Assembly (NCBI RefSeq): GCF_014203605.1
Contig: NZ_JACHJJ010000023.1
Location: 1 to 64,000, forward strand
DNA: 64,000 nucleotides
DNA from: Thiemannella venezuelensis
GTDB lineage: Bacteria > Actinomycetota > Actinomycetes > Streptosporangiales > Streptosporangiaceae
Reading direction: 5' to 3'
Positions within the stretch are counted from its first letter, which is position 1; the number at the start of each line of letters is the position of its first letter. This document shows positions 2,864 to 51,784 of the stretch, one piece after another. The translations under genes and the position numbers were made by a program. Under the pieces are notes generated by a model that saw only the letters and a list, made by a program, of their open reading frames with translations, was not told where the DNA came from and made no database searches.

Positions 2864-3974
2864 ATGGCGCAGATCGTGAAGCGGGCCTACAAGTACCGCT
2901 TCCACCCGACCCCCGAGCAGGCGAACGAGCTGGCCCGGACGTTCGGCTGCGTCCGCTACGTCTACAACAAGGCCCTGGCGATGCGCTCCCGCGCCTACAC
3001 GGCCGAGGGCCGCAAACAAAGTCTCCTACGTGGAGTCCTCGGCGCTGCTCACGGCATGGAAACGCGATCCAGGGCTGGAGTTCCTGTCGGAGGTCTCCTC
3101 CGTGCCGCTGCAGCAGGCGCTGCGCCACCTGCAGGCGGCGTTCGCCAACTTCTTCGCCAAACGAGCCAAATACCCCACGTTCAAGTCCCGCAAGAAGTCC
3201 CGCGCGTCGGCGGAGTACACGCGCAGCGCGTTCCGCTGGCGCGACGGCACGCTGACGCTGGCGAAGATGGACGCGCCCCTGGACATCGTCTGGTCGCGGC
3301 CGCTGCCCGAGGGCGCGCAGCCGTCCACGGTGACCGTCTCGAAGGACGCGGCCGGGCGCTGGTTCGTGTCCCTGCTGGTGGAGGAGACGATCCGGCCGTT
3401 CGATCCGGTGGACGCCTGCGTCGGTGTGGATGCCGGGATCACCTCCCTGCTCACCCTGTCGACCGGCGAGAAGATCACCAACCCCCGGCATGAACGGGCC
3501 GACCGGCGCCGCCTGGCCAAGGCCCAGCGCAACCTGTCGCGAACAGCGAAGGGCTCGAACAACCGGGCCAAGGCCCGACTGAAGGTGGCCCGCATGTACG
3601 CGCGGATCACCGACCGGCGCCGGGACTTCCTGCACAAGCTCACCACTCGTCTCGTCCGTGAGAACCAAACGGTCGTGATCGAGGACCTCACCGTCCGCAA
3701 CCTGGTGAAAAACCACGCGCTGGCGCGCGCCGTCTCCGACGCCTCCTGGCGGGAACTGCGCTCCATGCTGGAGTACAAGACCGCCTGGTACGGGCGGGAA
3801 CTGCTGGTCGTCGACCGCTGGTTCCCCTCCAGCAAGTTGTGCTCGACTTGCGGGGCGCTGCGCGCGGCGATGCCGCTGGGTGTGCGGATCTGGGAGTGCG
3901 CCTGCGGCGCGGTCCACGACCGCGACGTCAACGCCGCACGCAACATCCTCGCCGCCGGGCTGGCGGAGAGGTGA
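2864..3974 (+). pseudogene. tnpB: TnpB RNA-guided nuclease gene, frameshifted
   Basis: The N-terminal part begins at ATG 2864 with the helix-turn-helix region (AYKYRFHPTPEQ). The remainder lies in another frame up to the stop at 3974. The shift maps to the A-rich tract around 3014-3022; removing one base there joins GRKQ to VSYVESS, the usual TnpB sequence. The rest looks intact: RuvC motifs GVDAGI (Asp), VIEDLTV (Glu) and [10 protein letters not shown] (Asp), and a four-cysteine zinc finger (CSTCGA, CACGA-like). Reconstructed length is about 370 residues, normal for the family. Intact TnpB is an omega-RNA-guided DNA nuclease that supports element retention. The gene is therefore a recent pseudogene or carries a sequencing error. 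Confidence 0.85.
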
Positions 3975-4097
3975 AACGCCTGTGGAGCCGGTGTAAGACC
4001 TCAAGGGCGCACGCCCGGCGGGCGACCGGCGGTGAAGCAGGAAACCCGACCCGTGAGGATTGGAATCCCCCGGCTTCAGCCGTGGGGAGGAAGTCAA
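3975..4097 (+). ncRNA. Predicted omega-RNA scaffold region at the IS right end
   Basis: In IS200/IS605 elements the guide RNA is made from the 3' end of tnpB and the adjoining right end, with the guide lying just outside the element. Here the 123 bases after the tnpB stop include several inverted repeats and the terminal hairpin 4067-4087, and end in TCAA. The predicted guide would come from the following bases, which are the antisense of the glk 3' end. This is inferred from family knowledge; no promoter or RNA boundary can be read directly. Confidence 0.35.
4067..4087 (+). repeat. Right-end subterminal hairpin of the IS element
   Basis: Five C, GGC, loop TTCA, GCC, GT bulge, four G, followed by AGGAAG and the terminal TCAA. 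It has the same architecture as the left-end hairpin at 2768-2788. Confidence 0.65.
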
Positions 4098-5055
4098 GCG
4101 TACTCCAGGTTGGACGTGGTCGTCAGGCGCTGGTTCAGCCAGGCCGCCGCGCCGGTGAGCGCGGGCTGGGGGGCCACGATCAGCACGGTGGCGATGGCGG
4201 ACAGGTAGTCGCCGAGGGTCGGGGTGGCCTCGAAGCGGCGGCGGAAGTCGCTGGCGCGCACCCGCTCCACGATACGGGGCAGCACGCCGCCGCCCAGGTA
4301 GACGCCGCCGCGGGCGCCCATGGTCAGCGCGACGTTCCCGGCGAAGGTGCCGAGCAGGCCGCAGAAGACGTCGACGGCCTCGGCGCACAGCGAGTCGTCC
4401 AGCCGGGCCACGATCTCGGCGGCGGGCAGGTCCGGCGCGGACACGCCGTGGACCAGGGCGAGCGCGTGGTGCAGCCGGGTCAGCCCCGGCCCGGAGAGCA
4501 GGTGCTCGGCCACCACGTGGTCCATTCCCTCGGCGCGCAGCGCCCGCACGACCTCGTGGTCCCGCTCGTCGAGGACCGGCACGGTCACGTGCCCGCCCTC
4601 GCACGGGACCGGCATCCAGCCCTCGGCCACGGGCACCAGGCCCGCGACGCCGAGACCGGTCCCGGGGCCGAGCACGGCCTTGACCCCGTGCGCGGGCTCG
4701 GGACCGCCCAGGGAGACCAGGTCGCCGGCGGCCAGGTGCGGCAGGGACGCCGCCAGGGCCTCGAAGTCGTTGAGCAGCTCGACGTGGGCGATCCCCAGAT
4801 CGCGCACCGAGCCCGACCACCCGGCGTTGGTCAGCCGGTAGCGGTCGCCGTCGATCGGGCCGGCGATCGCGATGCAGGCCGCTCCCGGCCGGACTCCGCC
4901 CGCATGGTCTGCGAGATAGGCGGCTACGGCTTCGGGGAGACCCGCGTGCTCCTTCCCGGCGAGCACGGCGATCGCCTCGGGCTGCCCGCCGGCCTCGGTG
5001 ACCAGGCCGAAGCGGGCGTTGGTGCCGCCGATGTCGGCGACGAGCCAGGGAGTCG

Positions 5056-5059: not shown

Positions 5060-6945
<1,886 letters not shown>

Positions 6946-7004
6946 CCGGCCTCCTCCGTGGTCGTCGGTGCGATGGTCTCGTGCGTCGTTTCCGGCGGGC
7001 CCGC

Positions 7005-8480
7005 TCATGCGAGGCCCTCCTCGTGCCAGGTGCGGCCGCTGCGGCCGACGAGCTCGTGGGCTCCTGCGGGTCCCGCGGTGCCCGCCGGGTACGGCTCGGG
7101 CAGCATGTTCTGCGACTCCCACTCGGTGAGGATCGGGTCGATCCACCGCCAGGCGGCCTCCACCTCGTCGCGCCGCATGAACAGGGTCGGGTTCCCGGCC
7201 AGGACGTCCATGAGCAGCCGCTCGTAGGCGTCGGGCACGCGGGCGGTGAAGGTCTCGGCGAAGCTCAGGCTCAGCGGGACCGGCTTGAGCGCCACCTCGC
7301 CCGCGCCCGGCTCCTTGGCCATCAGCTCCAGCCGGATGCCCTCGCTCGGCTGCAGCCGCAGCACCAGCCGGTTGGGGGTGCTGCCCGGGAAGATCGAGTG
7401 GGGCACCTCCTTGAACTGCACCACGATCTCCGAGGACCGGTACGGCATGCGCTTGCCGGTGCGCAGGTAGAACGGCACGCCCGCCCAGCGCCAGTTCTTC
7501 ACCTCGGCGCGGATGGCGGCGAAGGTCTCGACCCGGTGGGAGGCCTCGGTGGGCGGGGTGTTGTCGGGCTCGTCCAGGTAGCCGGGGACCGGTACGCCGC
7601 CGGAGACGCCCGCGGTGTACTGGCCGCGCACGGTGAAGCGGTCCACCTCGCCGCCGGTGATCGGCCGCAGCGACTCCAGCACCTTGACCTTCTCGTCGCG
7701 GATGGACTCGCGGTCGTTGCGGGCCGGGGGCTCCATGGCGACCAGGCAGAGCAGCTGGAGCAGGTGGTTCTGCACCATGTCGCGCAGCGCGCCCGCGTGG
7801 TCGTAGTAGCCGCGGCGGCCGGGCGTGCCGACGGTCTCGGCGGCGGTGATCTGGACGTGGTCGATCCACAGGGAGTTCCAGATCGGCTCCAGGAACGCGT
7901 TGGCGAAGCGGAGCACCAGGAGGTTCTGGACCGTCTCCTTGCCCAGGTAGTGGTCGATGCGGAAGATCTGCCGCTCGTGGAAGATCGCGCCGACCTCGTC
8001 GTTGATGTGCCGGGCGCTGGCCAGGTCGCGGCCGAGCGGCTTCTCCAGCACCACCCGGGAGGCGGGGGTGACCAGTCCGGCGCGGTGCGCCTCGCGGCAG
8101 AACGGGCCGAACGTCATGGGCGGGCTGGCCAGGTAGAACACCCGGTCGCGCTGCTCGTGGCCGGCGAGCAGGGCGGTGACCTTCGCCCAGCCCGTGCTGT
8201 CCTCGCCGGAGATGTCGATGGAGATGTGGTGCAGGCGCCCGAGGAAGCGCTGCCAGGTGGCGAGGTCGTCCACCGGGACCGAGCCGCGGACCTCGGCGTC
8301 CACCTTGCCGCGGAAGTCGGCGTCGTCGAGTCCGCCGCGGGACATCGCGATGATCCGGGTCTCGGGGGCGAGCAGGCCGTCGCGGTCGCAGTGGTAGAGC
8401 GCGGGCAGGAGCTTCCGCATGGAGAGGTCGCCTGTGCCGCCGAAGACGATCAGGTCGGCGGGCTGCGGGGTCTCGGACAT
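7005..8480 (-). CDS. zwf: Glucose-6-phosphate dehydrogenase
   Basis: NADP-dependent oxidation of glucose-6-phosphate to 6-phosphogluconolactone, the entry to the ED and pentose phosphate routes. The 491 residues match the family. The nucleotide-binding motif is [16 protein letters not shown] (residues 14-29) and the substrate signature RIDHYLGKE lies near residue 170. It is the first gene of the minus-strand ED operon and is divergent from a ROK regulator. No lactonase (pgl) gene is present in the operon, so that step must be encoded elsewhere or be spontaneous. AGCTCCCCC before the start gives a GGGGGAGC-type ribosome site. Confidence 0.96.
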
Positions 8481-50342: not shown

Positions 50343-51083
50343 TCAGTGGTGGCAGAGCAGGCAGTGCAGGGCCGCCTCCAGGGAGCCCGCGTCGGCGACG
50401 GGCGCGGGCCAGGGCAGGCGGACGAGGGTCGGCCGGTCGAGGGCGCCCGAGCGCACGGTGACGCCGAACCGGTCCAGCTCCCAGAGCCAGGCGTCGGTGA
50501 CCGGAGCGGCCATCAGCGAGGCCAGCGCGTTCTCCAGCCGGTCCCGGTGGGCGCCGTTGATGTGGCGGATCATGCGCTCGGCGTCGGCCAGCAGCGGGTC
50601 GGGTGCGGCGTCGAGATACTCCTCGGCGTCCAGCACGCCGGACTCCGGCCCGGTGAGGTAGACCACCTGGCCGACGTCGACGCGGAGCAGCCGCGGGCCG
50701 TCGGCGGCCTCCGGACGCTCCACGGCCTCGAACAGCGCCTCGTCCGGGCAGCGCTCGGCGATCGCGACCGCGGTCTCGCGCAGCTCTCCGGCGGGTACGG
50801 CCTGCACCCATCCCTGCACCTTGAGCAGGCCGCGGGAGAGCTCGGCCCCGCCGAGCGAGCGGCTCGCGGTCAGGTCCACGGTCACCACCGGCTCCTCCCG
50901 TGCGCCGTGCAGCGGATCCCCGGGCACGACCAGCAGCACCGGGCGGCCGGAGCCGTCCACGCCGCCCCGGGCGGGCATCGCGGGCCTGGCCGTGCCCGCG
51001 AGGGAGACATGGGTGGGCGCGGCGGTCGCGGCGAGGGTGCGGACCCGCTCGGGGATCGGCGGAGCGGTGACGGGGTGCTGCAT
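50343..51083 (-). CDS. DUF2470 / pyridoxamine-oxidase-like protein, iron-box regulated
   Basis: The 246-residue protein has an N-terminal split-barrel flavin-type region (residues about 20-110; RPVLLVVPGDPLHGARE, VTVDLTASRSLGG) and a C-terminal DUF2470 domain (about 155-240; DAERMIRHINGAHRDRLENAL). This order resembles HugZ-type haem-degrading proteins. It ends in CLLCHH, a cysteine/histidine cluster. A near-consensus DtxR/IdeR-type iron box (51121-51139) lies 38 bases upstream, supporting a role in iron or haem metabolism. The start ATG 51083 has CAAGGAGAG upstream. The catalytic role is inferred. Confidence 0.82.
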   Translation of the reverse strand: MQHPVTAPPIPERVRTLAATAAPTHVSLAGTARPAMPARGGVDGSGRPVLLVVPGDPLHGAREEPVVTVDLTASRSLGGAELSRGLLKVQGWVQAVPAGELRETAVAIAERCPDEALFEAVERPEAADGPRLLRVDVGQVVYLTGPESGVLDAEEYLDAAPDPLLADAERMIRHINGAHRDRLENALASLMAAPVTDAWLWELDRFGVTVRSGALDRPTLVRLPWPAPVADAGSLEAALHCLLCHH

Positions 51084-51120
51084 GAACCGGCTCTCCTTGA
51101 GATCGGGTGGCGGTTACGTC

Positions 51121-51159
51121 TAAGGTAAGCCTTACCTCAGTAAGGCACACCTAACCACA
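51121..51159. promoter_or_regulatory. DtxR/IdeR/DmdR-type iron box pair in the DUF2470-rpsD promoter region
   Basis: 51121-51139 matches the 19-base consensus TWAGGTWAGSCTWACCTWA at 18 positions and contains the perfect palindrome AGGTAAG-C-CTTACCT (51123-51137). A second, weaker copy at 51141-51159 matches 14 of 19. The boxes lie between the divergent DUF2470 (start 51083) and rpsD (start 51170) genes, 31-48 bases upstream of rpsD. Iron-loaded repressor bound here would be expected to lower both transcripts. The consensus is established knowledge; regulation of these two genes is inferred. Confidence 0.75.
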
Positions 51160-51169
51160 AGGAGCGATC

Positions 51170-51784
51170 GTGCGCTACACCGGACCCAAGGTGCGGCTCT
51201 CCCGCCGCGCCGGCGTCCCGCTCACCCGCAAGGCCGTCCGCTACTTCGAGGAGCGGCCCTACCCGCCGGGCGAGCACGGCCGCAAGACCAACCGTCGCCA
51301 GACCGGCGACTACGGTCTGCGGCTGATGGAGAAGCAGAAGCTCCGCTGGTACTACGACGTCTCCGAACGGCAGATGCGCCGCTACTGGGACATGGCCCTG
51401 CGCAGCCCCGGCCGGTCCGGCGCCGAGCTGGTGGTCCTGCTGGAGAGCCGCCTGGCCTCCCTGGTCCTGCGCTCCGGCCTCGCGCCGTCCATCTACGCCG
51501 CCCGCCAGTACGTCGCGCACGGCCACATCACCGTCGACGGCCGCAAGGTGGACATCCCCAGCTACCTGGTCAAGCCCGGCCAGGTCATCGCGGTGCGGGA
51601 GCGGTCCCGCGCGATGCAGCCGTTCGTCGCCGCGGCTGAGGGGATCTACGCCGACGAGCGGATCGCCTCCTACCTGGACGTCAACCACGCCGACCTGCGC
51701 TTCACGGTGGTCAGCCGCCCGCTGCGCGAGCAGATCGTGGTCCCGGTGGACGAGCAGATGGTCGTGGAGTTCTACTCCCGCTGA
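51170..51784 (+). CDS. rpsD: Ribosomal protein S4 (uS4), cysteine-free
   Basis: 204 residues. The N-terminal S4 domain (RYTGPKVRLSRRAGV, EERPYPPGEHGRK) is followed by the S4 RNA-binding motif near residues 95-155 (LESRLASLVLRSGL, ARQYVAHGHITVDGRKVDIPSYLV). S4 binds 16S rRNA early in 30S assembly. The protein contains no cysteine at all, so it lacks the N-terminal metal-cluster ligands of some bacterial S4 proteins; this is normal for actinobacterial S4. It stands alone rather than in the alpha operon. Its GTG start has AAGGAG 5 bases upstream and an iron box upstream of that. Whether it is the only S4 or a paralogue cannot be told from this window. Confidence 0.93.
   Translation: MRYTGPKVRLSRRAGVPLTRKAVRYFEERPYPPGEHGRKTNRRQTGDYGLRLMEKQKLRWYYDVSERQMRRYWDMALRSPGRSGAELVVLLESRLASLVLRSGLAPSIYAARQYVAHGHITVDGRKVDIPSYLVKPGQVIAVRERSRAMQPFVAAAEGIYADERIASYLDVNHADLRFTVVSRPLREQIVVPVDEQMVVEFYSR

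Follow-up and report, generated by a model that had tools for sequence, protein, structure and literature searches.

The window analysed here, a 64,000-nucleotide stretch of the Thiemannella venezuelensis genome, probably encodes a version of ribosomal protein S4 meant for iron starvation, a metal-free switch partner of the S4 that the same genome encodes in its alpha operon. This arrangement suggests that a soil bacterium may be able to build ribosomes without the iron-sulphur cluster of S4 when iron is scarce. Zinc-sparing ribosomal paralogues are well known, and a metal-free S4 linked to an iron box would, if our reading is true, be their new iron counterpart. The basis for this reading in the sequence is the presence of two S4 genes, the difference in their cysteines, the iron box, its likeness to the iron-type boxes of the genome, its conservation among relatives, and the boxes that stand before S4 only in three genomes.

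The locus (Table 1) is arranged as the original prediction had described it: a box matching 18 of 19 consensus positions lies in the 86-base gap between divergent DUF2470 and rpsD genes, a second and weaker box is present beside it, and the rpsD product contains no cysteine at all. This product scores over the NCBIfam rpsD equivalog cut-offs, and its gene is under purifying selection (dN/dS 0.08-0.32 in eight pairs). A promoter scan returned no sigma-70 consensus promoter in the gap region of the window.

Table 1. Features of the rpsD-DUF2470 locus, in window coordinates
Feature	Positions	Strand	Evidence
DUF2470 (haem/iron-type) gene, divergent; shares the box with rpsD	50343..51083	-	PF10615, 32.9 bits over a cut-off of 22
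Regulatory gap common to DUF2470 and rpsD, 86 bases	51084..51169	.	
Iron box 1, DmdR/IdeR/DtxR-type palindrome, TAAGGTAAGCCTTACCTCA	51121..51139	.	18/19 positions of TWAGGTWAGSCTWACCTWA; 30.5 bits
Iron box 2, weaker, 4-base overlap with box 1, CTCAGTAAGGCACACCTAA	51136..51154	.	11.7 bits
rpsD paralogue, ribosomal protein S4 without cysteines, 204 aa, GTG start	51170..51784	+	PF00163 and PF01479

The key expectation of the original prediction was a second rpsD, preferably one in the alpha operon or with cysteines near its N terminus, and the genome has one with both attributes. A genome search for the S4 domain returned a second full S4 at C9:110034-110651, in the gene order S13-S11-S4-rpoA, which also scores over the NCBIfam S4 cut-offs and is 45% identical to the window copy. 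Its cysteines 9, 12, 26, and 31 form a CXXC-CXXXXC motif in the N-terminal domain, which by sequence makes it a candidate S4 of the [4Fe-4S] type. The available text of PMC10450194 gives this motif as the pattern for metal-binding uS4, and sections of that paper and of PMC6555806 place an Fe4S4 cluster at the CXXC-CXXXXC site of Thermus uS4. On our reading, the four cysteines of the alpha-operon S4 would hold a metal site, most likely a [4Fe-4S] cluster. The window copy is a C- paralogue, that is, a genuine S4 without the four-cysteine motif, encoded outside the alpha operon in a genome whose alpha operon carries a C+ S4; we use C- for any S4 that lacks this motif, whether or not it has other cysteines.

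We scored iron boxes with a matrix derived from 16 perfect sites elsewhere in this genome, the window site being left out, and used TWAGGTWAGSCTWACCTWA as what we took to be the iron-box consensus. Seven of the 16 sites adjoin FecCD or Peripla_BP_2 genes by Pfam (L009, L014, L015, L017, L026, L028, and L030), and five more adjoin plausible iron genes: an MFS gene (L008), two ABC genes (L022 and L034), a short-chain dehydrogenase gene whose iron role we judged by eye (L019), and a SufR-like frame, its identity also judged by eye, beside sufB (L020). For the remaining four (L011 VTT, L013 ATP-grasp/NUDIX, L024 DAO, and L033 PNPOx) no link to iron is evident. The box upstream of the SufR-like frame (C7:189158) scores 27-28 bits, so the iron regulator may act on Fe-S cluster assembly as well. 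A pattern scan of the 8.18-Mb genome with up to one mismatch gave 68 matches against 52 for the reversed control pattern, so only perfect palindromic sites are informative, and such sites of the core pattern occur at few places in the genome. Box 1 reaches 30.5 bits against a best of 12.5 in a null of 2 Mb of first-order Markov sequence, and a chance match as its origin is rejected on this comparison. It is, by sequence, a DtxR/IdeR/DmdR iron box, a 19-bp palindrome like the genome's own sites that lies in a divergent gap. Box 2 is weak alone, but 62 of 64 named relatives likewise have a second site scoring at least 8 bits. The genome also holds a DtxR-family gene (L233, C9:34829) with both iron-repressor domains, the DNA-binding and the metal-binding one, and a FeoA-type domain; three other matches to PF01325 exceed the cut-off but are short and weak (26.6-28.8 bits).

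The box is conserved among the named close relatives, which include Planomonospora, Planobispora, Streptosporangium, Nonomuraea, Herbidospora, Sphaerisporangium, and others. It reaches at least 14 bits in 63 of their 64 loci and 13.7 bits in the remaining one (L202), where DUF2470 was not found beside it; these 64 loci are 74 minus 10 distant ones (41-46% identity), carry no S4 count, and stand outside the two-S4 tally that follows. The C- copies of the window's clade are mostly cysteine-free (61/64 named), and those of family f7 and of a Streptomyces-like genus keep one to three other cysteines, for example at positions 22 and 191. A CXXC within the first 45 residues occurs in none of 234 C- sequences and in all of 27 four-cysteine loci.

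Among the two-S4 genomes that we examined, a box of at least 14 bits precedes the C- copy in 79 of 83, and no box stands at any of the 27 four-cysteine S4 loci (26 distinct genes, L086 and L117 being one), the best score there being -0.8 bits. These two counts lend support, at the level of sequence, to the iron-sparing reading of S4 that had been put forward originally. In the window's family (f1, 61 genomes), 20 genomes have both S4s, 17 the C- copy only, 22 the four-cysteine copy only, and two no match, and the box stands at the C- gene in 19 of the 20 with both. Family f7 (61 genomes) comprises 48 genomes with both S4s, four with C- only, and nine with the four-cysteine copy only; here the box is present in 46/48 two-S4 genomes versus 0/4 with a sole C- S4 (Fisher p = 5.5e-5, without correction for descent). 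The Streptomyces-like genus (91 genomes surveyed) contributes 13 genomes with both S4s, all 13 of them boxed, and f10 contributes a single two-S4 genome, boxed at 31.7 bits; in yet another family, G086 has two S4s and no box (0/1). In f7 and the Streptomyces-like genus, genomes were mostly assigned two S4s from an alpha-type match in which the cysteines were not read. In the phylum survey only 10 candidates per genome were scored, so that second S4s may be missed, and 15 of its two-match genomes (G066, G103, G123, G136, G148, G164, G166, G193, G229, G233, G259, G302, G329, G341, and G346) fall outside the box count. The loci of the genus survey leave out G445 (partial, at a contig end) and G441 (no match). 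One f7 locus, L288 (G366), is in the box count and was omitted from the tree described below; there a frameshift breaks the C- S4, and the box (20.4 bits) and the four-cysteine S4 are retained. Two f7 genomes have third, distant S4-like matches at 34-38% identity (G362:C3:69016-69561 and G369:C78:151289-151819).

The idea that the box is present only where both S4s exist is rejected as a general rule, given that 61 of 114 loci with a sole C- S4 have a box of at least 14 bits: 17/17 in f1, 44/86 in the Streptomyces-like genus, 0/4 in f7, 0/6 in f9, and 0/1 in f2, the last seven genomes having been hand-picked from the phylum survey. Some of these boxes are weak. One Streptomyces-like box (L328) scores 15.3 bits, and four of the 17 in f1 (L053, L056, L062, and L068, none of them with DUF2470) are weak but recognisable at 15.5-16.0 bits; in L053, L056, and L068 the weak box runs into GGGATTCCC. 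Four two-S4 genomes, G052, G403, G376, and G086, have no box and no DUF2470-like frame in the 1.0-1.5 kb examined upstream, and S4 alone therefore does not always keep the box.

An unlikely explanation of the window locus is that the box is the operator of the divergent DUF2470 haem gene only, the neighbouring rpsD not being usefully iron-controlled. Iron control of DUF2470 genes is in print: the available portion of PMC13258150 describes Rv3839 as IdeR-dependent, and that of PMC8914203 describes an S. griseus DUF2470 gene with a DmdR1-like motif. Nearly all boxed loci in our survey have DUF2470 on the other side of the box, where it was sought within the fetched flank, mostly up to about 1.5 kb upstream. 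The Streptomyces-like sole-S4 genomes carry the box in 44/44 cases with DUF2470 versus 0/42 without, and in these the box most simply belongs to DUF2470. Four of the seven two-S4 genomes without DUF2470 next door are also without a box. DUF2470 was found in none of 12 four-cysteine-only f1 genomes searched (of 22), so DUF2470, box, and C- S4 mostly occur as a set. The boxed loci without DUF2470 are five sole-S4 loci of f1 (L053, L056, L062, L063, and L068), the weak L202, and three two-S4 genomes (G368, G371, and G460), and these last three tell against a box for DUF2470 only. G368 (L283) has a double box of 27.8 and 17.7 bits before its C- S4, behind a co-directional methyltransferase gene and about 1.2 kb upstream of the S13-S11-S4-rpoA genes; in G371 (L265) a co-directional TetR gene precedes a 22.4-bit box; and in G460 (L313) a co-directional MgsA/RarA-type gene precedes one of 29.8 bits. 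On the opposite strand of all three, the only open frames are antisense to the upstream genes, and S4 is the sole recognisable gene leading away from the box, which is therefore not an operator of DUF2470 only. (In a second view of the G368 locus, L294, the boxed C- S4 and the four-cysteine S4 lie at 3784-4398 and 6436-7062, about 2 kb apart.) Two further loci point in the same direction: G383 of f7 has a DUF2470-like frame near its sole S4, yet the box is absent, and the other DUF2470 gene of the window's genome (L224, C1:665514) lies in a 3.2-kb locus without an iron box (best 1.8 bits).

Spacing also bears on which gene the box serves. The window's clade comprises 71 distinct loci (eight duplicates among 79 being excluded), of which 70 have a strong box; in 62 of these 70 it begins 49-50 bases ahead of the S4 start, whereas its distance to the DUF2470 start ranges from 9 to 47 bases in 33 readable loci. 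The constant distance is thus to S4 and not to DUF2470, against what an operator for DUF2470 only would lead one to expect. The 13 sole-S4 loci of f1 with a strong box have 14 bases on the DUF2470 side in 9/9 readable cases, a point for DUF2470 as the gene served there, and 57 to 78 bases on the S4 side. These distances fit a box whose position is tuned to S4 in genomes with a spare S4, and to DUF2470 in genomes with just one. Independent-pair tests on a FastTree of 187 rows had too few independent events for any to be significant. They gave four supported pairs for two S4s versus box (mean 2.1 the same way, 0.0 opposite), seven for DUF2470 versus box (4.1 and 0.0), three for two S4s versus box without DUF2470 (1.5 and 0.5), six for DUF2470 versus box in sole-S4 rows (3.5 and 0.0), and three for DUF2470 versus box in two-S4 rows (0.9 and 0.0). 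Their direction mostly agrees with the spacing pattern, and tree counts of this kind cannot separate gain from loss.

It is very improbable that the cysteine-free S4 is a zinc-sparing paralogue beside which the iron box is incidental. Zur control of the window rpsD is rejected: scanning with a Zur consensus, we found no Zur-like site in the 86-base gap (best 7/15 versus a shuffle mean of 7.7). The same scan gave seven Zur-like sites in the genome versus none for the reversed control, the window gap not being among them, and one of the seven (L391, C45:6701) has L31, S14, and L32 genes, all cysteine-free, within the next 1.2 kb. The genome thereby appears, as far as these sites tell, to sort its metal-free ribosomal paralogues by metal, with an iron box for one and a Zur-like site for others. 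The zinc reading does have a published basis, for the available text of PMC3087516 calls S4 C+ zinc-binding and discusses S4 C- as zinc economy; that same text reports that 26 genomes with multiple S4 genes, searched for Zur sites, had none near the S4 paralogues, and it leaves the control of these open. The Fe4S4 cluster of Thermus uS4, as given in the relevant part of PMC6555806, stands against zinc as well. Quite unlikely, too, is the explanation that iron stress calls for the cysteine-free S4 on grounds other than iron economy, such as altered decoding accuracy, a role outside the ribosome, or the need for the Fe-S site to survive oxidative or nitrosative stress. Further S4 roles have been published (PMC10931766, in the portion available), and a clostridial C- S4 is reported up in sporulation in the accessible sections of PMC3087516; loss of the four-cysteine motif is nevertheless a consistent difference between the copies, to judge by the CXXC counts above, and a metal reason is the simplest fit to it.

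Under the iron-sparing reading that we prefer, when iron is plentiful an Fe2+-loaded repressor of the DmdR/IdeR type, sitting on one or both boxes, would hold down the cysteine-free rpsD together with the divergent DUF2470 gene, and ribosomes would take the alpha-operon S4 with its four-cysteine metal site. When iron runs short, the repressor would be released and the metal-free S4 made, with which 30S assembly would go on without the cluster and iron would be spared. We infer that the repressor binds, in which direction it acts, that the cysteine-free S4 enters ribosomes, and which metal is bound. The weakest step is how strongly S4 is repressed: many genomes have the box at an S4 that is their only one and essential, and a strong iron off-switch on such a gene is implausible. 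From the distribution, we propose that the boxed sole-S4 genomes represent later stages, the spare having become the sole S4 and the box having been retained for DUF2470. We regard as evenly balanced the broader proposition of an actinobacterial iron-sparing switch in which a DmdR/IdeR-controlled cysteine-free S4 replaces the alpha operon's [4Fe-4S] S4 when iron is short, the choice of regulator betrays iron rather than zinc as the metal in vivo, and, in Streptomyces and other lineages, the spare became the only S4 and the box persisted as a relic until DUF2470 was lost. A conserved iron box on the metal-free copy is a sign that cells treat S4 as an iron protein; we found no report of this in the open-access literature, though the Fe4S4 cluster of Thermus uS4 is known from structures. 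Nor did we find there an iron-controlled S4 paralogue or an iron-sparing ribosomal counterpart, most subscription papers lying outside the scope of the search.

Several known systems resemble the one proposed here in part. The C+ and C- paralogues of S4 were described by Chen, Roberts, and Luthey-Schulten in 2009 (PMC3087516), and the arrangement in the available text of that paper is like ours, with a four-cysteine S4 in the alpha operon and an S4 free of the cysteine motif outside it. Unlike our analysis, that text treats the metal as zinc and leaves regulation open, whereas we find an iron box, a candidate answer to the question; and the two-copy actinobacteria that it names are two Salinispora and one Frankia, whereas two-S4 genomes are common in two families surveyed here. 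The divergent gene and box recall the IdeR/DmdR-linked DUF2470 genes, Rv3839 and that of S. griseus, with the difference that here an S4 paralogue shares the box, which also, in three two-S4 genomes, stands without a DUF2470 neighbour. The portion of PMC524172 available lists C. diphtheriae rpsD in a predicted DtxR regulon, within a secY-adk-rpsM-rpsK-rpsD-rpoA operon; that rpsD is a member of a long operon and, unlike the window gene, not a separate cysteine-free paralogue. The S. coelicolor DmdR1 regulon text available from PMC12161575 does not mention rpsD, and the parts available of PMC8464063 and PMC13061897 contain nothing on S4. A further parallel is with the Zur-controlled zinc-sparing paralogues (L31, S14, L32, and others), with which the proposed S4 switch would share a metal-free copy, a metal-responsive repressor, and a presumed exchange on the ribosome. 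S4 differs from them in having an iron box in place of a Zur box and a metal site that in Thermus is Fe4S4. S4 is also an early assembly protein. The window's genome appears to have both kinds, an iron-boxed S4 and paralogues with a Zur-like site.
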